Assembly: GCA_001604565.1 (NCBI GenBank)
Contig: LVBV01000018.1
Span: 102,458 to 166,457 of the forward strand
Direction of reading: 5' to 3'
From: Puniceicoccales bacterium Verruco_01
GTDB lineage: Bacteria; Verrucomicrobiota; Verrucomicrobiia; Opitutales; Oceanipulchritudinaceae
Length of the DNA: 64,000 bases
Positions 33,784-53,424 of this stretch are shown piece by piece. Both the position numbers and the translations under genes were made by a program. The notes under the pieces were generated by a model that saw only the letters and a program-made list of their open reading frames with translations, had not been told where the DNA came from and ran no database searches. Position 1 is the stretch's first letter; each line of letters starts with the position of its first letter.

Positions 33784-34144
33784 GGACGCACGAGCTTCGG
33801 TCTCTTCAACTGACGGTTCGTGCAAAGGAGGGACTTCCCGGCGGAAGTCCGACGAATTCATCCGCACGCCAGACGTGTTCGCACGACTGGAAAAACCCCT
33901 GCCAGGCCCGGCCACCCCTGTCCCACTCCCGCCACATTACCAGCCGTAACGATGCGATCATCACCCCGGCAGCGCCGCCCTCGTTGATACCCTTCGTAAC
34001 GAAAGACCATCAAAGCCGATTTTCATTCGCTCAACCCACACTCTCATGCTCCCCTTCTCGCGTTTCCTGACATCCCTCAATGCCGCACCCGCAACCGCTG
34101 GTGCGGAACAAATCAACCCCGGCAGGAATGCGCAAGGAAGCTCC

Positions 34145-35308
34145 ATGCGGTCCGAGTCTCCACATCCGACGCATTCAGGCAGATATTACCGCCCCGAGCT
34201 GGACATTCTTCGTTTCCTTGCCTTCCTCTGCGTCTTTGTCACACATCGCCTTGATCTGGCGCGCTTCGATGAAGGGAGTCATTACTGGAGCTATCACATC
34301 AGCCTCGTGGGCGTGTTCGGGGTTCCCGTGTTTTTTCTCCTGAGCGCATTTCTGATCACGGAACTGCTGACCCGAGAAAGGGAGCAGACCGGGAAAATTC
34401 AACTTGGGGCATTTTACTTGAGACGCGCGCTGCGCATCTGGCCCCTCTACTTTTCCGTGTTCTTCGGGCTTGTCCTTTTGACACATTTGGTTCCCGCCTT
34501 CGGCTGTATTCCTTCCGAAACATGGCTTCCCTTTGGCCTGTTTGCCGGAAACTGGTACGTCAGCACGCATTTCTGGATTCCTTCCTATCCGGTTAACGCA
34601 CTATGGAGCATTTCCGTAGAGGAACAGTTTTATATTCTCATCCCGCTTCTTGCATGGTTTGGCGGCAACCGCGGGTTAAAAATCTTCAGCGTCGCCTGCA
34701 TCGTCGCGGCGTACGCCTTCATTGCTCTGTACGCCAGCCACCCCACCGCTGGCTTCAACAGCGAGTGGACCAACAGTTTCGTCCACTTTCAGTTCTTTTC
34801 GGCGGGAATACTGCTCTCCCTTTTCCTCAAGGGACGGCAGCCCCGCATGCCGATCGCAATCCGCATCCTGATGGCAGCCGCCACACTTGGATGCTGGCTC
34901 GCTGCCTCGCTTGTTTTCGGCATCAATGCCGACGCCCCGCATCTTTCCTCCATCCCCGCGGCACTATGTGGCTGGATGCTGGTGCTCCTCGGCGCGGTGT
35001 TACTGCTGTTGGGACTGCTGGGGACCCCCGACCGATTCATCCCCCGACCCATCGTCTATCTGGGCCGCATTTCCTACGGGCTCTACGTCTTCCACGCGAC
35101 CATGTATTTTCTCGTTTACTCGCTGTTCAAGGAGGCTCTCATGCGTTTGTGCGAATCACTCGGGATCGGTCCCTGGTGGGGCGCCGTCGGCATGGTCCTG
35201 TCGCTTGCCGCAACCATAGTGGTCGCTTCCCTGTCCTACCGGTACTTCGAACGCCCGTTCCTGAACCTGAAGAAGCGCTTCACAATCGTCCCTTCGCGCC
35301 CCGATTAA
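34145..35308 (+). CDS. OafA/YrhL-type acyltransferase
   Basis: YYRPELDILRFLAFLCVFVTHR; LWSISVEEQFYILIPLL; RISYGLYVFHATMYF. Confidence 0.9.
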   Translation: MRSESPHPTHSGRYYRPELDILRFLAFLCVFVTHRLDLARFDEGSHYWSYHISLVGVFGVPVFFLLSAFLITELLTREREQTGKIQLGAFYLRRALRIWPLYFSVFFGLVLLTHLVPAFGCIPSETWLPFGLFAGNWYVSTHFWIPSYPVNALWSISVEEQFYILIPLLAWFGGNRGLKIFSVACIVAAYAFIALYASHPTAGFNSEWTNSFVHFQFFSAGILLSLFLKGRQPRMPIAIRILMAAATLGCWLAASLVFGINADAPHLSSIPAALCGWMLVLLGAVLLLLGLLGTPDRFIPRPIVYLGRISYGLYVFHATMYFLVYSLFKEALMRLCESLGIGPWWGAVGMVLSLAATIVVASLSYRYFERPFLNLKKRFTIVPSRPD

Positions 35309-35638
35309 GCTGCGTTTTGAGATCCAGACGACCGGGGCAACGGCATTCATTTTCGGCGAAAAACAGATCGTGTGGAAAATCGAGATTCTCCGATCCGGAT
35401 GAGCAGCCTTTTCGCACAATAGACGCCTGCTTCCTGACGGAAGTCTTGTTACAATAAGCTCTTCCGACTTCGCGAGCAACCCTGGAGGTGGCTGGACTCG
35501 GCCACGTTTCTTAAGTCGCTTATTTCCAATGATTAAGCAACTCGTCGCTTTGCCAGTTTAGGCAGAGTTAATACCTTTGAGTCGATTCCAGTAGCGTTCG
35601 CGTGCCTGCGGTTCTCCGATTTTCATCGTTTTCGGGCC

Positions 35639-35815
35639 TCAAGCAGCCACTTTTTCCTCCTTTCTGTCGGTTCCATCCCCCACCCTCGGGTCATCAGCCC
35701 GGTAGTAGTAGTTGAGCAGCCCTCCGAGCTGTGCGCGTTTTACGATTTCACCCGTATTTCGGTAGGTTTGCGCCTCCGGTTCGATGCTCCGGTTGTCGAT
35801 GCCCTGATGGGGCCG
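35639..35815 (-). pseudogene. C-terminal fragment of a DDE integrase-core transposase, truncated at the CRISPR array
   Basis: RPHQGIDNRSIEPEAQTYRNTGEIVKRAQLGGLLNYYYRADD...; upstream part of the frame is CRISPR repeat sequence. Confidence 0.7.
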
Positions 35816-38800
35816 CGGGGGTTGGCCCGCGGATGGAGGTGAGCAGGCTAGCAAGGCCCTCCATTTTCTCCTCGCTTCAATGGGGCCGCGGGGGTTGGCC
35901 CGCGGATGGACGACTCAAACTCCATAAGCGTCCCAACAAAGGGGCCGCTTCAATGGGGCCGCGGGGGTTGGCCCGCGGATGGAGGCGTTCAAGAGGTTCG
36001 CCCGCGAAGAGCTGTCGCCGCTTCAATGGGGCCGCGGGGGTTGGCCCGCGGATGGTCGCTCGAAGCCCCACGTCTACTACGTGCTCACAGGGCTTCAATG
36101 GGGCCGCGGGGGTTGGCCCGCGGATGGGCCACGAAGGCGGTCAATCGCCTGAAACAGGTCGCGGCTTCAATGGGGCCGCGGGGGTTTGCCCGCGGATGGC
36201 GCCGCTCTCGTCGCAGATCGGCAATCTGGCGCAGGCGCTTCAATGGGGCCGCGGGGGTTTGCCCGCGGATGGCGGTGTGAAAGCTGAGGCGATCCCTTGG
36301 CCGATCCCGATGCTTCAATGGGGCCGCGGGGGTTTGCCCGCGGATGGTTGTGTTTACCTAGAACAGGCAAAGCAAGAACAAATGCTTCAATGGGGCCGCG
36401 GGGGTTTGCCCGCGGATGGTCGACATCACTACTATCGACCATTTTTTGTTTTGTGTGCTTCAATGGGGCCGCGGGGGTTTGCCCGCGGATGGTTATTCCA
36501 TCGCGTCCGTGATTAGTGAATGCTGATAGTGCTTCAATGGGGCCGCGGGGGTTTGCCCGCGGATGGGAGGGCATCCGCCGTGTTCTGTGCGTTGTTGGCC
36601 GCCATGCTTCAATGGGGCCGCGGGGGTTTGCCCGCGGATGGGTGCATGTCAGAACCTAAGATTGCATCGAGCACGCCGCGCTTCAATGGGGCCGCGGGGG
36701 TTTGCCCGCGGATGGCATTCTCCGGAACGTTCGTCAGGCTCGTGCAGCCACGCTTCAATGGGGCCGCGGGGGTTTGCCCGCGGATGGGACGATCTGATCG
36801 GGCAGAACTTTAGCCCCTCCGATGCTTCAATGGGGCCGCGGGGGTTTGCCCGCGGATGGAAACAGATCGGCAATCTCGCTTCGGCGAATGCCGATCTGCT
36901 TCAATGGGGCCGCGGGGGTTTGCCCGCGGATGGTACCAGGGGGCTGAGCGCGTGCTGGCGCAAGTGGCGCGCTTCAATGGGGCCGCGGGGGTTTGCCCGC
37001 GGATGGCGCGATGGCGTGAAAATCCTTACTCCGTTCTGGCAGGCTTCAATGGGGCCGCGGGGGTTTGCCCGCGGATGGTGCCGCGATGGCGTGAAAATCC
37101 TTACTCCGTTCTGGCGGGCTTCAATGGGGCCGCGGGGGTTTGCCCGCGGATGGAGGCTGCGCTTGGTGTCCTTGTCCCCGCCGTCCGAGTAGCTTCAATG
37201 GGGCCGCGGGGGTTTGCCCGCGGATGGCATTTCTAGCGGGTCGGAAAGAAAAAATGCGCCCGCAGCTTCAATGGGGCCGCGGGGGTTTGCCCGCGGATGG
37301 TTTATCCTGGGCATATCTTAGTGGGGTTGGGTTATTGCTTCAATGGGGCCGCGGGGGTTTGCCCGCGGATGGCACAAGGGCGACAAGGGGGGATTCATCG
37401 AGACAGAAGAGCTTCAATGGGGCCGCGGGGGTTTGCCCGCGGATGGCGGGATGACGCCTTTTATGGCGCCGCCAAGCGAGGTGCTTCAATGGGGCCGCGG
37501 GGGTTTGCCCGCGGATGGTCCATCGGCGGAACGACCCATGCCATCGATTCCACGGTGCTTCAATGGGGCCGCGGGGGTTTGCCCGCGGATGGGTAATATT
37601 TGGCACCACTTCGGCACCACTCAACCGAGCTTCAATGGGGCCGCGGGGGTTTGCCCGCGGATGGTTTGCTGCCTATCCAGAGCATGAACCACCATTGCAG
37701 GCTTCAATGGGGCCGCGGGGGTTTGCCCGCGGATGGAAGATCAACCGCTTTCTTGCCGTCACCTGTAACTGTGCTTCAATGGGGCCGCGGGGGTTTGCCC
37801 GCGGATGGCTGAATGAGGCCGACGCGCTTCGCAAGGAGAACGAGGCTTCAATGGGGCCGCGGGGGTTTGCCCGCGGATGGTCCAAGAAAATCGCCTCATT
37901 CCGCAGTTTTGTGTGCGAGGCTTCAATGGGGCCGCGGGGGTTTGCCCGCGGATGGCGATTCCTGCAACAGAAACAGTCGATTCCTGCAACAGCTTCAATG
38001 GGGCCGCGGGGGTTTGCCCGCGGATGGCACGGTCACCGGCATCCTTCCCGAGGCCGAGGCGATCGGCTTCAATGGGGCCGCGGGGGTTTGCCCGCGGATG
38101 GACAGGTCCGCAGGATGCGGACGCTCTTGCGCTACGCTGCTTCAATGGGGCCGCGGGGGTTTGCCCGCGGATGGACCGGTCAGGAATCGACATATCCGGA
38201 TTATTATTCTCGTGCTTCAATGGGGCCGCGGGGGTTTGCCCGCGGATGGCTCGTTGGGTGCTCCTGACTCTGACGGTTGATCCAAAGCTTCAATGGGGCC
38301 GCGGGGGTTTGCCCGCGGATGGCATACTCAATACCATACGGAATGCACCATATAGCCAGCTTCAATGGGGCCGCGGGGGTTTGCCCGCGGATGGAGGCAA
38401 CTCTGACCGCTTGAGCTTCCGCAAGTTGACAATGCTTCAATGGGGCCGCGGGGGTTTGCCCGCGGATGGTCTGTTAATACGTCACACTTCTTCGCAGCCA
38501 TACTCGGCTTCAATGGGGCCGCGGGGGTTTGCCCGCGGATGGCATGAATATTACGGCTTGCCCGATTGGGTTTTAGACCGGCTTCAATGGGGCCGCGGGG
38601 GTTTGCCCGCGGATGGCCAATGAAAGTGTAAGCGCCGGTTGTGGTGTTATAAGCTTCAATGGGGCCGCGGGGGTTTGCCCGCGGATGGTCGCAGGCTTGA
38701 GACGAGGGAGTGGGAAGCGAAAGGCTTCAATGGGGCCGCGGGGGTTTGCCCGCGGATGGGTCAGATACTACGAACTTGAAGATCTCTGCTGGTTGCTTCA

Positions 38801-41800
38801 ATGGGGCCGCGGGGGTTTGCCCGCGGATGGCGGATATGGAAGCATAAGAAACAGCGCCATAGGGTCGGGCTTCAATGGGGCCGCGGGGGTTTGCCCGCGG
38901 ATGGCCTCAGGATCAGTGCCATCACCTTCATTTTTTGACCAAGCTTCAATGGGGCCGCGGGGGTTTGCCCGCGGATGGTATGTCGTTCTAGCGACGTGCC
39001 TGTTTTCCGGTTGTCGCTTCAATGGGGCCGCGGGGGTTTGCCCGCGGATGGGACAGAATTGGCGTCATAGTTGTATGTAGTCCCTGTGCTTCAATGGGGC
39101 CGCGGGGGTTTGCCCGCGGATGGAGGATTTGACGTTGCCGCGCTCAAGAAGATTTTCACCGCTTCAATGGGGCCGCGGGGGTTTGCCCGCGGATGGTCCA
39201 ATGAGGACGCACGGACTGTAAAAACTCAGCGGCTTCAATGGGGCCGCGGGGGTTTGCCCGCGGATGGAAAACGCCTGCGGTTGGATTCGCCAGCAATGCA
39301 CCGCTTCAATGGGGCCGCGGGGGTTTGCCCGCGGATGGTACATGGCCCGTCGTGGACAGGTCAGATGGTTTCCAAGAGCTTCAATGGGGCCGCGGGGGTT
39401 TGCCCGCGGATGGGCCGAGAAGGTGGCGCAGGCGGAGGCCAAGCTCGAGCTTCAATGGGGCCGCGGGGGTTTGCCCGCGGATGGGCGGCGAATCCAGGGC
39501 TGGCGGAACTCGGGCCGGTCTAGCTTCAATGGGGCCGCGGGGGTTTGCCCGCGGATGGCTACTGCGCCGGATTCAGCCTCGCAGATCGAATAATTGCTTC
39601 AATGGGGCCGCGGGGGTTTGCCCGCGGATGGGCGTTCGCGGACCGGGAATCGAGAATACGACATGGCGGCTTCAATGGGGCCGCGGGGGTTTGCCCGCGG
39701 ATGGGCTTTCTGCAACAGCCACAAGGGCCAAGGGCAAGCCCGGCTTCAATGGGGCCGCGGGGGTTTGCCCGCGGATGGCCGCCTTCTTCGCGTTGTGACG
39801 CGCGAAGAGGACGCCGCTTCAATGGGGCCGCGGGGGTTTGCCCGCGGATGGCTGGTGGGCATGGAAGATCCGCACCGGCATCCGAGAGCGGGCTTCAATG
39901 GGGCCGCGGGGGTTTGCCCGCGGATGGGCGTTTTGACACGCTTGCTTTTTCGCAAGCCTTGTCGCTTCAATGGGGCCGCGGGGGTTTGCCCGCGGATGGC
40001 CGCGATGGATTCCGTAACCTTGACAAGAACCTGACGGCTTCAATGGGGCCGCGGGGGTTTGCCCGCGGATGGGGGTGGATCGGTCCCGGGTGAAGAAGAA
40101 ATCAATAAGGCTTCAATGGGGCCGCGGGGGTTTGCCCGCGGATGGCCGTCCTGCTCCGCCAACAACCACCGACGAGGGCAGCTTCAATGGGGCCGCGGGG
40201 GTTTGCCCGCGGATGGCGTGTGCGTTGGGCTTGTCCCGGTCGTGGAGTCGATATGCTTCAATGGGGCCGCGGGGGTTTGCCCGCGGATGGGCGGAAGATA
40301 TTACTTTCCGCCAGCTCATCAACACGCTTCAATGGGGCCGCGGGGGTTTGCCCGCGGATGGCTCGTTAAGCACCATGCTGACGCACGCGCTTTCGCGGCT
40401 TCAATGGGGCCGCGGGGGTTTGCCCGCGGATGGACCGACGGCTTTCGCACGTCGAAGCGCGCGTACTGAGCTTCAATGGGGCCGCGGGGGTTTGCCCGCG
40501 GATGGTGCGTTGGCAATCGACGACGAAAAGCTGGCGAACTACCTTCAATGGGGCCGCGGGGGTTTGCCCGCGGATGGCCGCGACTCATCGCCTCCATTGC
40601 GGAACGGTATTCGCCTTCAATGGGGCCGCGGGGGTTTGCCCGCGGATGGTTGGAACATCGGGAAAGACCCGTTGCATCGGTACCGCCTTCAATGGGGCCG
40701 CGGGGGTTTGCCCGCGGATGGACGGCGGCTGGAGCGGCGGGCGAACAGGATTTTGACCCTTCAATGGGGCCGCGGGGGTTTGCCCGCGGATGGGAAGCGA
40801 TGTCGTGTATGACCACCACGCGACGACCGGACCTTCAATGGGGCCGCGGGGGTTTGCCCGCGGATGGATGAACACATTTTTCCTTGCGCGCGCGGGGCAG
40901 TATCCCTTCAATGGGGCCGCGGGGGTTTGCCCGCGGATGGTCGCGTCAGGCGCTTGTCGATGTCGCGGGTCTGCCCGCCTTCAATGGGGCCGCGGGGGTT
41001 TGCCCGCGGATGGATGCCTCGTCTCTCCCACGCCCGGAAAACAGTCTCTTCCTTCAATGGGGCCGCGGGGGTTTGCCCGCGGATGGGACGGCACGGGCTG
41101 CAGCGGCGGGGGGAAACTCGCGTCGTTCCTTCAATGGGGCCGCGGGGGTTTGCCCGCGGATGGATTCGACGATTGAAAAGGGCCGCCTGCTTGTCCGCAA
41201 GCCTTCAATGGGGCCGCGGGGGTTTGCCCGCGGATGGCGTATCGGCGTCATGGCGCACGGGGTGTGCCGCGATCCTTCAATGGGGCCGCGGGGGTTTGCC
41301 CGCGGATGGACGAACCCATGAGCACCAAAGAAGCAGCTGAAAAGATCCTTCAATGGGGCCGCGGGGGTTTGCCCGCGGATGGCTTACAAGATCGGACATT
41401 TCGCGCAGAAAGTCAACACCCTTCAATGGGGCCGCGGGGGTTTGCCCGCGGATGGCCCGCACCCCCTTCCTCTGATGCTGTCTCCCGGACCCTTCAATGG
41501 GGCCGCGGGGGTTTGCCCGCGGATGGGTAAAAAGCTAAAGGGTTATGATGATGTATATATCCCTTCAATGGGGCCGCGGGGGTTTGCCCGCGGATGGCTG
41601 CCTAGCTAGAACTAATCTACAAATATATAGCTTCCTTCAATGGGGCCGCGGGGGTTTGCCCGCGGATGGTTACCGTTACGGGGCTTGGCAAGTTGCCCGT
41701 GGGGGCCTTCAATGGGGCCGCGGGGGTTTGCCCGCGGATGGGCTCGGCGTTACAGCGACGCCGTTTCGCTCTGACAACCTTCAATGGGGCCGCGGGGGTT

Positions 41801-42753
41801 TGCCCGCGGATGGGCGTAGCCGGTGGCTCCTCCATTCCGGCTTGCTCCCCTTCAATGGGGCCGCGGGGGTTTGCCCGCGGATGGCACTAAAGGCAATGGT
41901 AAGGGTTGTAAGTAAAGCAACCTTCAATGGGGCCGCGGGGGTTTGCCCGCGGATGGGGGCGGAACCTTGTCGCATTGGACAAGGTTATCGACCTTCAATG
42001 GGGCCGCGGGGGTTTGCCCGCGGATGGCTGTGCTATCATGGCAGGTATAGCCTTATAGTGATAATCCTTCAATGGGGCCGCGGGGGTTTGCCCGCGGATG
42101 GACCAATAACCCGTGGACTTCCACCAAGAAACCAACATCCTTCAATGGGGCCGCGGGGGTTTGCCCGCGGATGGAATAATTCAGATTCCGAATATTCTTT
42201 AGTAGAATACCTTCAATGGGGCCGCGGGGGTTTGCCCGCGGATGGCAAGACGAAATGTCCGGTAGAATTCGACGGCAAGACCTTCAATGGGGCCGCGGGG
42301 GTTTGCCCGCGGATGGGTGTTCGTCAGTCTGCCTCTTGATAGGGAGAAGGAGTTCCTTCAATGGGGCCGCGGGGGTTTGCCCGCGGATGGTCACCGATGG
42401 TCTGCGCGTATTCTGTCCGCCATTCCCCTTCAATGGGGCCGCGGGGGTTTGCCCGCGGATGGATCGCGGAAGCCGGATAGATCAAGCATCATGTCAGCCC
42501 CCTTCAATGGGGCCGCGGGGGTTTGCCCGCGGATGGGCGATACGCGGTCGGAGTGCCAAAGCGGTCGTATGCCTTCAATGGGGCCGCGGGGGTTTGCCCG
42601 CGGATGGATCTAACAGACCGCACCTCCCGGTTTCCCTGCGTCCGCCTTCAATGGGGCCGCGGGGGTTTGCCCGCGGATGGGGATTGACTTCCTTCTCACT
42701 GGTTTTGTATCGCAAGGCCTTCAATGGGGCCGCGGGGGTTTGCCCGCGGATGG
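35801..42753 (-). CRISPR. CRISPR array, 96 repeats (36 bp) and 95 spacers (about 34-39 bp); crRNA-sense repeat CCATCCGCGGGCAAACCCCCGCGGCCCCATTGAAG(C/G)
   Basis: Hand-counted repeats; internal palindrome CCGCGGG-6-CCCGCGG; ATTGAAGC/G 3' end in the minus orientation; degenerate repeat at the left (distal) end; cas genes beyond the right end. Confidence 0.99.
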
Positions 42754-43059: not shown

Positions 43060-43350
43060 TCACAGCACGAAACACGGAACCTCCACCTTGGCGTATTCCT
43101 GCCCGAGGGCGATGATGCGCCTCTCGCCACGCGTGTGACTCGGCCCCAGTTCGATGAAGAGGATCTGATCCTCGCTCCGGTCGATCAACTCAACGAGCCG
43201 GTGCTCCAGCTCCAGACGTTCGCGCTCGGTGAGATCGCACTCGAAGACCGAGTACTGCAAGTGCACCCCGTAATCCTTGCACGCGCGGTGCACGCGCCGC
43301 AGCCGCTTGGGATCACACACATCGTAGCTCACAATGTAGTTGGTTCGCAT
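43060..43350 (-). CDS. cas2: CRISPR-associated endonuclease Cas2
   Basis: MRTNYIVSYDVCDPKRLRRVHRACKDYGVHLQYSVFECDLTE. Confidence 0.97.
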   Translation of the reverse strand: MRTNYIVSYDVCDPKRLRRVHRACKDYGVHLQYSVFECDLTERERLELEHRLVELIDRSEDQILFIELGPSHTRGERRIIALGQEYAKVEVPCFVL

Positions 43351-43430
43351 CGCTCCACCCTTCCCTATCCGATCGCTTGCCATCCATACGAACACTCCAC
43401 CATTCACCAGGAAGCAGGCCTTTGCCAGAC

Positions 43431-45299
43431 TCAGCGTGTCGTGAACGGCACATACTGCTGGATCTCGCCCCCGAGCACCCGCGCCAGAAGGCGGAATTGC
43501 AGCTCCAACGCACGCCGGTAACTCAGCTTGTAATCGAACACCGGATGGTTGACCGTCGCCGCCATGCGCTGCTCGTATGCCATGAAGAAGGCCCGCCGCC
43601 CGTTCGCCGAAAGTGACACCGAATCGCCCGCTCGCACGAAATCCCCTTCGTTCACGCGCCCGTTGTTGATGAGCGAAATCACAATCGAGTCCACAATGAT
43701 GGCGCGGAATTCCTCCATCACGTCCAGCGCCAGTGCCGGACGCCCGAAGCGAGGCTGATGCAGGAAACCCACGTACGGATCGAACCCGCAGGCATAGGCC
43801 GCCAGAGTGCAGTCCCGCGCCAGCAGGCTGTAGCCGAGCGAGAGCATCGCGTTGACCGGATCGCGCGGAGGGCGGCGGTTGCGCGAATTGAAGTCAAACG
43901 ACAAGCCCTGCTTCGACGAGGGCGCCGCCCTGCCCTCCTCGACATCCTCGTTTCCGCGTGGCTTGAGCATACCCTGAAAATGGCTGAAGTAGGCCAGCGC
44001 CCCCGCGCCCTCGATGCCCATCAGCTCGGTGATGCTCCCAGCGCCGAGCGCCGCCTGCGCCGCAAACTTGAGGCGCTGGAGCACCTCGCGCGGCGGGGCA
44101 ATGTGATTGCGCATCAGGAGAGTGCGCTGGTTGCGCAGTTTGCCGTGCACAAACAGGCGCGCGTGGCTCAGCCGAAGCTCCGCATCCCCCGCCTGACGGA
44201 ACTGCTCGATGCGCGTGAAGACGTTCGTCAGCGAGTGCCCCCGCGTCATCCCGTAGAACCAGCCCCCGAGCGTGAAGTAGGTGATCGGGATGTCCTTCTC
44301 GCACAGCGCCTGCACGGCGGATGCCGAGAGCTGGATGGCGCCGAAGAGGGCCAGATGGTGCAGGTCCATCAGGCGGAATTCCCCAACCGGCGCTTCCTTT
44401 TCCTTTACGACGAGCGTCTCGCCCTTCTTGGAAACATACATGTGCGGGCTCTGCAAATAGAGGGCCTTCGTGTCGTCGCCCGGCGTCAACAGGCGCCGCA
44501 CATCCTCGCCCGGTTTCATCGGGCGGAGCTTGATCTCCGGCCAGCTCATGAACGGCCCGCCGCTCAAGCGGTCCACATCCACGCCCGCCACCTGCATCGG
44601 CAGCTCCATCTGCGCCGCCGGGGCATAGTCCGCCAACTCCTCGCCGCCACCGAGGGCCTCGGCAAGGTAGCGCGTCTCGTCCGGCAAGCAATGGCCCACA
44701 TGCGAACAACGCGGGCACTTCCAAGAGTGATCGAGTGGCGGCGGCAGTTCGCCAAAGCCCACACGGCGCGCCTGCGAAACGTTGTCCAGCACCCACGCCT
44801 CCAGCTCCTCCGTCAGGGCCAAGAGCACGCGCTGGCGGGTCTCGCGATAGTAGATGAACCCGGTGTCGCAGCGGTAGCCGTTGTCGCGCAGGAGCAGCAT
44901 CTGAAGGCCGAGCTGCATGCGGTCGGCCTCCCATATCTCGGGCTGGCCGTCCTCCCCGGCTTTTGGCGCACCCTTCTTGTATTCGACGGGCGAAAGCTCC
45001 GGCGGCTGCCCGTCCCCGCCCGGCTTCACTTCCACAAGATCCAGCTTCGCCGTCACGCCAAGTCGCTCCGAGGCCAGCGCCACCGAGCGCGAATGAATCG
45101 TCTCCTCCACCGCTTCGCCGGGCGCCGCGAGAGCTCCCTTGCCGGAATCAACGCGTTCGTGCTCCTGCTTGCCCTGAATCGTGTCCGCATTATGGACGAA
45201 AATCCCGAGAACAAACTGGTAATAGTAGAGCCGGGGACAGTAAACGAACTCGTTCAGCTGCCGGGCGGGAATGACCAGAGTATCGGGCGTCTCGTTCGT
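43431..45299 (-). CDS. cas4-cas1: Cas4-Cas1 fusion; N-terminus extended beyond the ORF-track GTG at 45110, start codon uncertain (candidate ACG 45299 or CTG 45278)
   Basis: Own translation upstream of 45110: TLVIPARQLNEFVYCPRLYYYQFVLGIFVHNADTIQGKQEHERVD (Cas4); Cas1 part LMDLHHLALFGAIQLSASAVQALCEKDIPITYFTLGGWFYG. Confidence 0.92.
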   Translation of the reverse strand, partial: TNETPDTLVIPARQLNEFVYCPRLYYYQFVLGIFVHNADTIQGKQEHERVDSGKGALAAPGEAVEETIHSRSVALASERLGVTAKLDLVEVKPGGDGQPPELSPVEYKKGAPKAGEDGQPEIWEADRMQLGLQMLLLRDNGYRCDTGFIYYRETRQRVLLALTEELEAWVLDNVSQARRVGFGELPPPLDHSWKCPRCSHVGHCLPDETRYLAEALGGGEELADYAPAAQMELPMQVAGVDVDRLSGGPFMSWPEIKLRPMKPGEDVRRLLTPGDDTKALYLQSPHMYVSKKGETLVVKEKEAPVGEFRLMDLHHLALFGAIQLSASAVQALCEKDIPITYFTLGGWFYGMTRGHSLTNVFTRIEQFRQAGDAELRLSHARLFVHGKLRNQRTLLMRNHIAPPREVLQRLKFAAQAALGAGSITELMGIEGAGALAYFSHFQGMLKPRGNEDVEEGRAAPSSKQGLSFDFNSRNRRPPRDPVNAMLSLGYSLLARDCTLAAYACGFDPYVGFLHQPRFGRPALALDVMEEFRAIIVDSIVISLINNGRVNEGDFVRAGDSVSLSANGRRAFFMAYEQRMAATVNHPVFDYKLSYRRALELQFRLLARVLGGEIQQYVPFTTR

Positions 45300-45319: not shown

Positions 45320-47080
45320 TTAGGACGGATCGGGCGCGGGGACGAACAGGCCAAGGCCGAAGTGTGCGCCGTATCCGGAGACAATTGGACCGCGCACCTT
45401 CTCGCTGAATGTCAGCCGAAGGCCCGTGCCGAAGGCGTGTGCCGTGCGGCTGCCGTGCGCATCGGGTTCAGCGGCGTTGCCTCGCTCGCGCGTGGTCTTG
45501 AATTGGAGCCAATGAAAAGTCCGACCATCATCGAGAGAAAGAAGCTCCAAATTCTCCAGTGCGGCAATGTGCACCTTGTCCGGATCTATCTGCCCGCCCT
45601 CGCCCATCGCATTGCCGTCCTCGTGCAGCAGGCGCACCAAGTCGTGCTCCGGCGAGCCGACGGGCAGCGTCAGGCCGCCAATTTCGCCCATCTTCGCCTC
45701 GCCGTTCTTGCGCGTCTTGGGGTTGCGCACGGGCACGAAGGGCGTGAGCGAGGTCCACGACTTCGATTCGCCGAACAGCGCACAGCTTTGAAAAAAGTCC
45801 TCCGGCTGCCCTGCGGCGAGCTGCACGAGCTTCGGAGCCAGTTTGCCCGTGCCGAGAAGGCCGCGCAGGTGCGTGGCGAGGCGGCTGTGTTCGGTGAAAG
45901 CCGGATCGTCCAGACGGTTCAGGCAATCGAGCGCACGAAGGGCATCGCGATCAAAGCCGTGGCGGGAGTAAACAGTGATGTATTCAATCGCGCCCGTGCG
46001 GGTGTTGCACTCCGGCAGGATGTAGGCGTGCGAATGCGCGCTGACTCCCGTGCTGTCATTCGGGTTGCGGTCCGCGTCGCAGCCAGTGAAGGCAAAGTTC
46101 CCGGGTGCTCTGGCGCAGAGAAGTTTGTGGATCACGTCCGTGATGAGGAGCGTCTTGGTGATCTGCGGCGGCACGGTGCTGACAAGGGCGAAGCGGACGA
46201 CTTTGGGCTTGTCGCCGACCTTGCCGCGCGCCGCGCCGGGCTTGAAGCGGAAGGGTTCGGCGGGGCGTGCGTACGTCACCCAGCGCGAGCCGGGCGGCTG
46301 GCTCCAACCGGCGGCGCGCAGGGCGCCGGTCTCCGCCTGAAGGGCCACATAGATGCGGGACGGCAGGGCGTTCGCGGTCTTGGCCCTTTTTCCCTTGGCG
46401 GTGGGCGGAGTCTGCGCGGCGAGCCACGCGGCAAAGGCGTCCGGTGACTCCGGTGCCAGCAGGCGCAGGGGCTCGCGGGAGCGTCCGGCGTCGGCATCCG
46501 CGGCAAGCGGCTCGACAAGCTGCTTGCGCGGCACCGCGTCGGGGGAGATTTCCAAAAGATCGGCGTCTGCCAGGGCCTCGGCGCGGCCAAGGTAACTGAG
46601 TGAACGCAGCAGTTCCCGCAGGACGGCATTCTCCCGTTCCTCAAGTTCCACGGGCCAGAAGACGATGAGCGGCCAGAAGGCGAGCATCTCCGCCGAACTG
46701 GCGTTGACTGTGGGAACCGCCGCCCCGTTGGTTCCGGGACCGCCCACATGCACGAAGGCGTCGATCAACTTCACCGGCTTGCCGTTCACGGGCATGTAGT
46801 GCCGCGTGTGTGCGGCGGCGGTGTCCGGACTCACGCGATAGCTCGGGAGCGCGGCGGCGAGCTTTTCGACAAGGGCCGCAAAGGCGTCTTCCGACAGCGC
46901 GGGGGCAAGCTCCGGATGGACGCGTTCGACAAAGCCGCGCTTGTGGTACCATGACGCGATGAGGGCGCGCAGGATGCGCCAGGGCGCGGGCGGCCACTCG
47001 GGCACGGCCTCGTTGGCGTGCGTGCCCCATGCGGAGGAATGATACCGCCCCGAGAGGAAGCGGAAGGCAAGTGCAATCAT
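45320..47080 (-). CDS. csb2: Type I-G Csb2 (GSU0054 family, Cas5-Cas6 fusion)
   Basis: MIALAFRFLSGRYHSSAWGTHANEAVPEWPPAPWRILRALIASWY. Confidence 0.92.
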   Translation of the reverse strand: MIALAFRFLSGRYHSSAWGTHANEAVPEWPPAPWRILRALIASWYHKRGFVERVHPELAPALSEDAFAALVEKLAAALPSYRVSPDTAAAHTRHYMPVNGKPVKLIDAFVHVGGPGTNGAAVPTVNASSAEMLAFWPLIVFWPVELEERENAVLRELLRSLSYLGRAEALADADLLEISPDAVPRKQLVEPLAADADAGRSREPLRLLAPESPDAFAAWLAAQTPPTAKGKRAKTANALPSRIYVALQAETGALRAAGWSQPPGSRWVTYARPAEPFRFKPGAARGKVGDKPKVVRFALVSTVPPQITKTLLITDVIHKLLCARAPGNFAFTGCDADRNPNDSTGVSAHSHAYILPECNTRTGAIEYITVYSRHGFDRDALRALDCLNRLDDPAFTEHSRLATHLRGLLGTGKLAPKLVQLAAGQPEDFFQSCALFGESKSWTSLTPFVPVRNPKTRKNGEAKMGEIGGLTLPVGSPEHDLVRLLHEDGNAMGEGGQIDPDKVHIAALENLELLSLDDGRTFHWLQFKTTRERGNAAEPDAHGSRTAHAFGTGLRLTFSEKVRGPIVSGYGAHFGLGLFVPAPDPS

Positions 47081-50440
<3,360 letters not shown>

Positions 50441-50444
<4 letters not shown>

Positions 50445-53185
50445 ACGGCGGCCTCCTTGTTTTCCGGAGTGTCGGCTTCCTTGGAGGCCCGTGCGTCGGC
50501 GGCGCGCAGGAGCGTTTCCAGCAGGGCGAGGCGGAAGGGGCCGATGCGGTTGCGCAGTTCGAGAGTCATTTCCAGCCACGAGGGCCGGTTGTACGAGCCG
50601 CTGCCCATGCGCATCGGCGACAGGTCGAGGGAAATCGGCTTGTCCACTACGAGCCGCCCGTCCCTGCCGTCCGGCAGTTCCATCGGCAACTGGCCAACGG
50701 CGGGCAGCGTGTCGTTCTGCCAGATTCCGCGCGCGAAAAGCGGTTCGCCACCGGCGGTGTTTGCCGGCACGGCCTCGCCCGGCATGGAGCGGAGGGAGAG
50801 GCGCACCTTGCCGTGGTGAGCGGCGATGAGGTAGGCGACAAGGGCGCGCGTCTGCGGATCCAAATCCTTTGCGGCATCCGAGCCGAGCCAGCCGAGCGCC
50901 GAGGCCAGCTCGTGCCGGAACTGTTTGCGGCAGTAGCGGGCCATCTTCGAGCGGCCCGTATCATCCTTCCCGCTCTTGGCGAGGATGGGCTGACCGGAAA
51001 GGGATGCCGCCGCGATCTCATACACGGCATCCGGCTCAAGCGTCTTTCCGCCTTCGTCCTTATCATATCCCCGCACGGCGAGCTGGAAGACCGGGTGGGC
51101 CTTGCCCGCGTCGTGCCAGATGGCCGCCGTCCGCAGCGCCGCACGCTCCGCATCGCTCACGGCGAGCGTCGCCATCACGCGGGAAGTTTCCACAAGCACC
51201 GCGCGCGTGTGGTCGAAGAGTTCCTGCGCATCCCGTGCGCCGCCGCTGGCGTATTCCTCGCCCGCGTTGTGCTCCCGTCCGAAGGGAATGCCCGTGTCAT
51301 CAGTCGGACGTATCCACTCGGGCATGTTGAGCCGCTCGACCGCGCCACTCTTCTTGTTCTTCTTCTCCTCGCCGACAAGGCCTGTCCAGCCGAGCGCGTC
51401 CTCATAGCCGCCCGCAAGGCGCGGCAGTAGGTACATGCGCCCGGCAACGACATTGTCATATTCGCCCACGCTGCGCCATTCGCCCTCGACGGCGTCCCAG
51501 GTCCATGCGTTGAGGCTCTCCGCCGGCTTTGCGTGCGTCTTGCCGAGCTTCTTGACAAAATCCTTGAAGCGACCGATGCCGACGCGGCAGAGTTCCGCAC
51601 GCACCGGTTGCATGATTTCCTTCGCATTCAGATCGTCCGCCTTCACACCGCGCGGCAATTCGCGCCAGAACACGAACACGTCCGCGCTCTCCGCGTCGGC
51701 ATCGCGCACGTAGCGCGATACGTCGATGTCCGCGCCGGAAAGGTCCGGCGTCGTGTCGAAAAGGTCCAGCAGGTCTTTGCGCCGCAGCACGGGGCGCACT
51801 TTGGTTTCAGGCCTCGCGGTGATGGCGGTCAGGCTCGCGGGCCCGGCGTCGCCCCCCTCGCCCATCCCGACGAGTAGCGATCGGCATTCGGCGATGCGAT
51901 CGGCATCGTACGGCAGGGCAAGTTCCACCGCCGCCTTGTCGTCCGTCTTTTCAAAGTCGATCCAGAAAATGCGCGCGCCCTCGATCCTGCCCCGGCGGTT
52001 GCAACGCCCGGCCCGCTGCACAAAGCTGCTCCACGGGCAGAGTTCCGTGAAGAGAGTCGTGGCGGAGAGGTCGAGCCCCGCCTCCACCACCTGCGTTGCA
52101 ACCACGACGCCCGCAAAGGGAGGCTCGCCCGCAAGCCGTTTCATGAAGGCGTCGCGTTCATTCGGGCGGAAGCGGGAATGCAACAGCAGACACTCGTCCG
52201 CCCGGTTCGCCCCCAGAAGCGCCTTCACGCTCTTGAACACCTCCTGAGCGCGGCTGACTCGGTTCACGATGACAAGCGTCAGACCTGGTTTTTCCGCGTA
52301 AGCCGCGCACACCTTCTCCGCAAGGGCCTTGGCATAGCCGGTTTCGTCCTTCGGGGTCAGCTTCACACCCGCAGCGTGCAGGGCCTTGGCCGCGTTGAGC
52401 CGCGTCGCCACATCTGGGATGGCACGGTCTTCCGGCTCAAGTTCCACATGCTTAACCATCGTCAGCGAATCGCGGAAATCCACCGTAGCCAGCCTGCCCG
52501 CGTCGAGCGTCGCGCTCATCCACCAGGTCGCACACCCCGTACCGCCGATCTTCTCCCTCAAACCCTGAAGCTGCGCGCCCGTCTCAACGCCCACGCCCAT
52601 CAGCTGCACCTCGTCCATCACCCAGAGGCAGTCGTTGTTGAGCAGCGCAAAGTGCATCGGCCAGCGGTGTGAGTTCATCGCATAGCCACGATTCAGCGCG
52701 CGGGAAAGGAGCATGTCCTGGGTGCCGATGATGATGGCCGGAGCTTCCGGCGAAAGATCCCAGTCACGGGAATCCGCGGAGGACTCGACACCGCCCATGA
52801 GGACGATCGGGCCGCGTGCGACAAGCTCCGCAAGCAGCTTCGCCGCACGTTCACCAAGACCCAGCTTACCGTTACGCTGTGCTGCGGAGAGGTTGGCGAG
52901 CCACAGCGCCACATCGGCCTGCGTCTGCTCCACAAGCGAGCGCATCGGCAGGCAGTAAACAAGCCTGCGCGGCCAGAGAGAGGCCGCATCGTCACCCAGC
53001 TGATTCCAGAGCCAGGCAAGCACAACCGCCGCCGTCTTACCCATGCCGGTGGGGACATTGATCCGGCAGTTCGGAACGCTGTGACCAGGGTTCGACTGCA
53101 AAGCGTATGCGAGTTTCTCCTGAAAGGCGAACGGATGTGCGCCGCCATATGCGGCAGAAAAGAAAAACGCATATTCAACGCTCAT
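50441..53185 (-). CDS. cas3: Cas3 helicase with C-terminal HD nuclease domain (type I-G arrangement); ORF opens at 53230
   Basis: NVPTGMGKTAAVVLAWLW, WVMDEVQLMG, STTLFTELCPWSSFVQRAGRCNRRG; C-term AAIWHDAGKAHPVFQ. Confidence 0.93.
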
Positions 53186-53196
53186 CTTGCCAACGT

Positions 53197-53224
53197 ATGA
53201 TACAGGCTCGCGGATTATTGTCAA
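53197..53224 (-). promoter_or_regulatory. Sigma70-like promoter of the cas operon: TTGACA-16-TATCAT
   Basis: Minus-strand TTGACA (53224-53219), 16 bp, TATCAT (53202-53197), 11 nt before ATG 53185. Confidence 0.65.
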
Positions 53225-53424
53225 TAACACACCTCATGTTCTGTTGCAGCATGTGGTCACCTCGAACAACTGGTTTCGTAGCGAGAACGAGGATTTGCTG
53301 ATGAATGGCAAGGCTTCGGAAGTGAGTCGTATTGGAGGAAATCCGGCGAACTTCCGAAACGCCGCCGGCCACCGCAAAGACCGTTCGCAGCAGAAATCAA
53401 GGTTGTTCGGGTTGCCCCAATTAA

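Follow-up and report, generated by a model that had tools for sequence, protein, structure and literature searches.

The leader-distal end of a type I-G CRISPR array is joined to the tail of an insertion sequence (IS) transposase gene, within a 10-nt word, GCGGCCCCAT, that both partners share. The array lies in the window (the whole stretch of DNA analysed, 64,000 nucleotides), which lies on contig C46 of a 2.5-Mb assembly in 61 contigs. A short-homology (illegitimate) deletion between an array repeat and an IS beyond the array is the probable origin of this end, and older spacers were possibly removed with it.

The CRISPR-Cas locus is of type I-G; the genes beside the array for Csb1, Csb2, Csx17/Cas8g, Cas3g and the Cas4-Cas1 fusion all score above their NCBIfam cut-offs (Table 1). 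The array itself is regular, with 96 repeats of 36 nt separated by 95 unique spacers of 35–41 nt. Numbered in window order, the repeats fall into three strata: 1–5 with TTGG, 6–65 with the consensus sequence and 66–96 beginning with CC (5, 60 and 31 repeats, respectively). In this two-step change along the array, mutations that became fixed in the leader-proximal template repeat are cleanly recorded. The adjacent spacers 17 and 18 (37007–37042 and 37079–37117) have the same sequence with a 3-nt shift, 34 nt being identical, as if one protospacer had been acquired twice with slipped ends.

Table 1. Features of the CRISPR-Cas locus and of the joint at its array end (window coordinates)
Feature	Position	Strand	Remarks
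IS remnant, whole, 334 bp	35483..35816	-	From junction to IS right terminus (CCACCTCCA on minus strand)
rve_3 (IS3/IS481-like) transposase gene, last 58 codons and stop	35639..35815	-	5′ part missing
Chimeric leader-distal repeat, 30 nt CRISPR repeat and 6 nt transposase gene	35801..35836	-	From repeat table and alignment with IS copies
Junction microhomology, 10 bp, GCGGCCCCAT	35807..35816	-	Present in repeat and in transposase gene
Type I-G CRISPR array, 96 repeats and 95 spacers	35801..42753	-	Leader side from 42754 upwards
cas2	43060..43407	-	
cas4-cas1 fusion (Cas4g/Cas1g)	43431..45110	-	
csb2 (cas5-cas6 of type I-G)	45320..47080	-	
csb1 (cas7g)	47081..48286	-	
csx17 (cas8g)	48108..50579	-	As listed, with provisional ORF start, overlapping next gene
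cas3g	50441..53230	-	Provisional ORF start

When all 96 repeats were extracted, 95 were found to begin on the plus strand with GCTTCAAT or CCTTCAAT; the sole deviant, first in window order, begins with GCCCTGAT, confirming the first-pass annotation in its claim that the last repeat is altered. Over 30 nt this terminal repeat is equal to repeats 2–5, sharing their TTGG variant, and it is a member of the oldest stratum. Its outer 6 nt read GCCCTG on the plus strand, against GCTTCA in its neighbours, and from these 6 nt out to 35483 the sequence is that of an IS transposase remnant.

Read on the minus strand from 35815, this flank encodes RPHQGIDNRSIEPEAQTYRNTGEIVKRAQLGGLLNYYYRADDPRVGDGTDRKEEKVAA (RPHQGIDNR...KVAA-stop), the stop codon ending at 35639. 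The same frame had been taken at first pass for a transposase C-terminus, and intact homologues bear this out: full-length transposases of 393 aa (C29) and 390 aa (C26) from the same genome, and one of 390 aa from a sister metagenome-assembled genome (MAG), all contain RPHQGIDNR in frame, the intact 393- and 390-aa genes reading EYMVHYHMERPHQGIDNRIIEPEAQTYRNTGEIVKRARLGGLLNYYYRADDPRVGDGT. The frame stands as first described, but the remnant does not stop with it, since IS homology goes on past the stop codon to the right terminus. What remains is 334 bp out of a roughly 1.35-kb element, with ∼1.0 kb missing at the 5′ end. DNA relatives of 35483–35816 in the same genome (C29, C26 and C41) have 90–92% identity (E-values 5e-117 to 2e-126) and intact transposase genes match the 58-aa tail at 91–95%, so that its identity as a transposase is far beyond chance. 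Copies of the IS, their right ends identical in position, occur on these three contigs and also in two sister genomes, G001 and G002. The remnant is still an open frame, and its private changes (three nonsynonymous and two synonymous) are too few to date the event.

A Pfam search with the 65-aa fragment alone gave no match; the family is therefore recognized only through the full-length homologues. In one of these (L002) the rve_3 integrase core PF13683 scores 48 bits (cut-off 26.5), NCBIfam transpos_IS3 88.1 bits (below its cut-off of 160) and transpos_IS481 84.3 bits (below its cut-off of 224). Judged by these matches, the transposase is related to the IS3 and IS481 families while lying under both NCBIfam cut-offs. 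With IS3/IS481-like rve_3 transposases it has in common the integrase core above the Pfam cut-off, a single ORF of ∼390 aa and ends of the form TG...CA; it differs from them in its scores under the two family cut-offs, and in the window no more is left of it than the last 58 codons and the right end.

The joint can be placed precisely by aligning intact IS copies (CACATGGAGCGGCCCCATCAAGGC), neighbouring repeats (CCCCCGCGGCCCCATTGAAGC) and the window (CCCCCGCGGCCCCATCAGGGC). From GCGGCCCCAT outwards the IS copies agree with the window, whereas towards the repeat they part from it at once (ATGGAGCGGCCCCAT versus CCCCCGCGGCCCCAT). At 90–92% identity, the homology of C29, C26 and C38 has one common starting base, and it breaks off abruptly within the repeat. 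A junction at microhomology, as claimed at first pass, is thereby well supported, although the shared word had been counted as 9 bp and is in fact 10 bp. Homologues with RPHQG in this frame were found, and none of them has independent sequence over the full length of the repeat. Both partners of a short-homology junction are thus identified, the change of homology between them is abrupt and the shared word lies at the joint.

Ordinary degeneration would make the last six bases point mutations of an old terminal repeat, with the transposase tail merely adjacent. Changes at the 3′ end of terminal repeats are indeed very common at CRISPR trailer ends (PMC8047081, PMC2886076). The six bases here, however, correspond to in-frame codons of the transposase, CAG GGC (all copies have CAR GGC), and they are contiguous with the 334 bp of IS homology; we consider this reading scarcely credible. 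It is also very improbable that the joint is an artefact in which the metagenome assembler connected array and IS at their shared word. Although the assembly is in 61 contigs and both partners are repetitive, the joined IS copy differs by 8–10% from every other copy found, which argues against a collapsed assembly repeat, and the 10-bp overlap is shorter than usual assembler k-mers.

The joint lies at the best site available to the two partners: GCGGCCCCAT is the longest direct-orientation word common to the repeat and each of three intact IS copies, words shared in inverted orientation reach 8 nt at most, and random array/IS junctions had a shared word of at least 10 nt in 28 of 200,000 trials. 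That such a word exists is unremarkable, as ∼5% of shuffled, Markov-simulated IS-like sequences share one of 10 nt with the repeat; what is remarkable is where it lies, at the joint.

In the deletion that we favour, an IS of the rve_3 (IS3/IS481-like) kind would have been situated outside the array, past its leader-distal end, and oriented in the direction in which the array is transcribed. The two would have been fused by recombination at the 10 bp common to the CRISPR repeat and the RPHQG codons, through replication slippage or through end-joining at short homology. The intervening DNA would have been lost: six terminal bases of the repeat, whatever older repeat-spacer units there were, the trailer that the array first had, and ∼1.0 kb from the start of the IS. 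We infer a simple deletion, one presumably independent of RecA. The missing 5′ part of the IS is not elsewhere on C46, and no repeats lie beyond the IS, which together argue against insertion of one partner into the other. That the CRISPR locus had inserted into an IS was rejected because the contig has no 5′ IS half, and an IS-catalysed adjacent deletion because the break is inside the transposase gene rather than at an IS terminus. Apart from the joint the terminal repeat is unchanged, which fits a former internal repeat and is no proof of one. An older part of the array, present before the deletion and lost with it, would fit this unmutated repeat, the missing 5′ IS part and the lack of repeats past the IS. 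The first-pass annotation had claimed a deletion or recombination that removed both the older part of the array and the 5′ part of the transposase; of this, the junction is well supported, the deletion is plausible, and a removal of older units would be in keeping with the array end. The event is a clean case of known processes, ordinary in its mechanism.

Among relatives, the nearest with the same repeat is G001, whose array contig is present in GTDB as the MAG Puniceicoccales bacterium Verruco_02. Its main array contig has 43 repeats, ends before the distal end and trailer, and has no spacers in common with the window array. No unjoined array was found in G001, G002, 86 further relatives or the GTDB contigs, and only G001 has the repeat, which is absent from G002; the order and orientation of the partners before the event are accordingly a reconstruction. 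A search for the empty site in the sisters found the left flank (33800–35480) to be absent from G001 and represented in G002 only by one short stretch at 72%. The genes to the left and right of the locus are in G001 on separate contigs, beside other genes, and different genes follow the shared MFS gene downstream. A second, two-repeat mini-array is found on contig C85 of G001 (L093, 187–306); its repeat is diverged, GCTTCAATGGGGCCGCGGGTTGATTCCTGCGGATGG, it adjoins a leader copy 87–88% identical to the leader in the window, and an ORF on the same contig (1069–1470) resembles a transposase remnant.

The absent flank and split contigs indicate that the surroundings of the locus have been rearranged in the genus, and they speak for an origin in which inversion, translocation or horizontal transfer placed the array, or the whole CRISPR-cas locus, beside the IS through the same microhomology, with no older spacers lost. 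Transfer into an IS should have left the 5′ IS half at the other border, and there is none on C46; a deletion, moreover, covers all the missing pieces with one event. We therefore hold such a rearrangement to be unlikely.

A deletion could also have been provoked by the system itself, a spacer against the IS, since lost, having led to degradation by Cas3 and closure of the gap at the microhomology. A complete type I-G system with Cas3 does adjoin the array, yet a comparison of the 95 remaining spacers with the IS copies and with the window gave nothing more than short chance words, leaving only a lost spacer as the possible guide, and we give self-targeting very little credence.

The deletion, however it was provoked, would probably have left the last spacer functional. 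In the RNA, the 7-bp stem of the normal repeat is preserved in the chimeric one. Going by the general scheme of type I crRNA processing, bases that follow the stem in a last repeat would serve only as 5′ handle for another crRNA, and here there is none, so that processing of the last crRNA is probably intact and the oldest remaining spacer usable. The cost of the event was probably at most lost memory.

Compared with degenerate terminal repeats described before (PMC8047081, PMC2886076), the change is likewise confined to the 3′ end (in the sense of transcription) of the last repeat, but here the altered bases come from an identifiable donor, the IS transposase gene, making this end a recombination joint and not a set of point mutations. 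As in illegitimate (short-homology) deletions in bacterial genomes, unrelated sequences meet abruptly at a direct repeat, here of 10 bp; the difference is that one partner is a CRISPR repeat, and that we infer the order before deletion. Spacer loss is usually ascribed to recombination or slippage between repeats (PMC8047081, a review; PMC11472070, a model). There too a CRISPR repeat recombines and array content may go, whereas here the partner is not another repeat, the array is cut at the old end, and its last repeat is turned into a hybrid. In the part of the literature covered, fusion of a terminal repeat with an IS is nowhere described, which is weak evidence of novelty.

Arrays are oriented and dated by means of their terminal repeats, in which changes at the 3′ end usually count as point mutations. 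Bases traced to a donor show that degenerate ends are, at least in some cases, recombination joints, and the length of an array and its ‘oldest’ spacer therefore need not reflect the first acquisitions. It is a doubtful but conceivable extension that a sizeable share of 3′ ‘degeneracy’ in terminal repeats consists of scars of short-homology deletions with flanking DNA rather than of mutations. Such scars would be tolerated since the hairpin of the last repeat survives, and truncation at the trailer end would be a general route of array shortening missed by repeat-repeat models. The present case, one scar in one metagenome-type assembly, is of limited importance.

The IS copy on C41 is likewise 5′-truncated (L029 2313, corresponding to L002 1064; G000 C41:139812), with a break 4 nt from the edge of the word shared at the CRISPR joint. 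It adjoins unrelated DNA that has no counterpart in the sisters and contains an ORF resembling, by sequence only, a histidine kinase. That the two breaks are so close may be coincidence or may reflect a fragile site, between which two cases cannot decide. We rejected the view that the C41 copy is an IS with a replaced interior: the piece to the left is a short element in its own right, with tmRNA-like sequence at its end, and after it come unrelated DNA and a second truncated IS.

In every copy the right end of the IS is similar to the final 21 nt of the host tmRNA, GTTCAACTCCCGCCACCTCCA (tmRNA in L082 near 1833). These ends are at 35483–35503 (minus strand) in the window and at L002 1383, L028 1779, L029 925 and 2631, L030 1234, L031 125 and L032 1618; that of the separate short element, at L029 925, matches the tmRNA tail exactly. 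DNA past the IS end in C41 and in G001 C43 is also like the DNA downstream of the tmRNA gene. Either the terminal repeat of the IS is derived from the tmRNA tail or the insertions occurred at tmRNA-like sites. The window also contains, at 53255–53420, a dispersed repeat of ∼150 bp with dozens of copies at 80–94% in G001 and G002, resembling a MITE or REP family.
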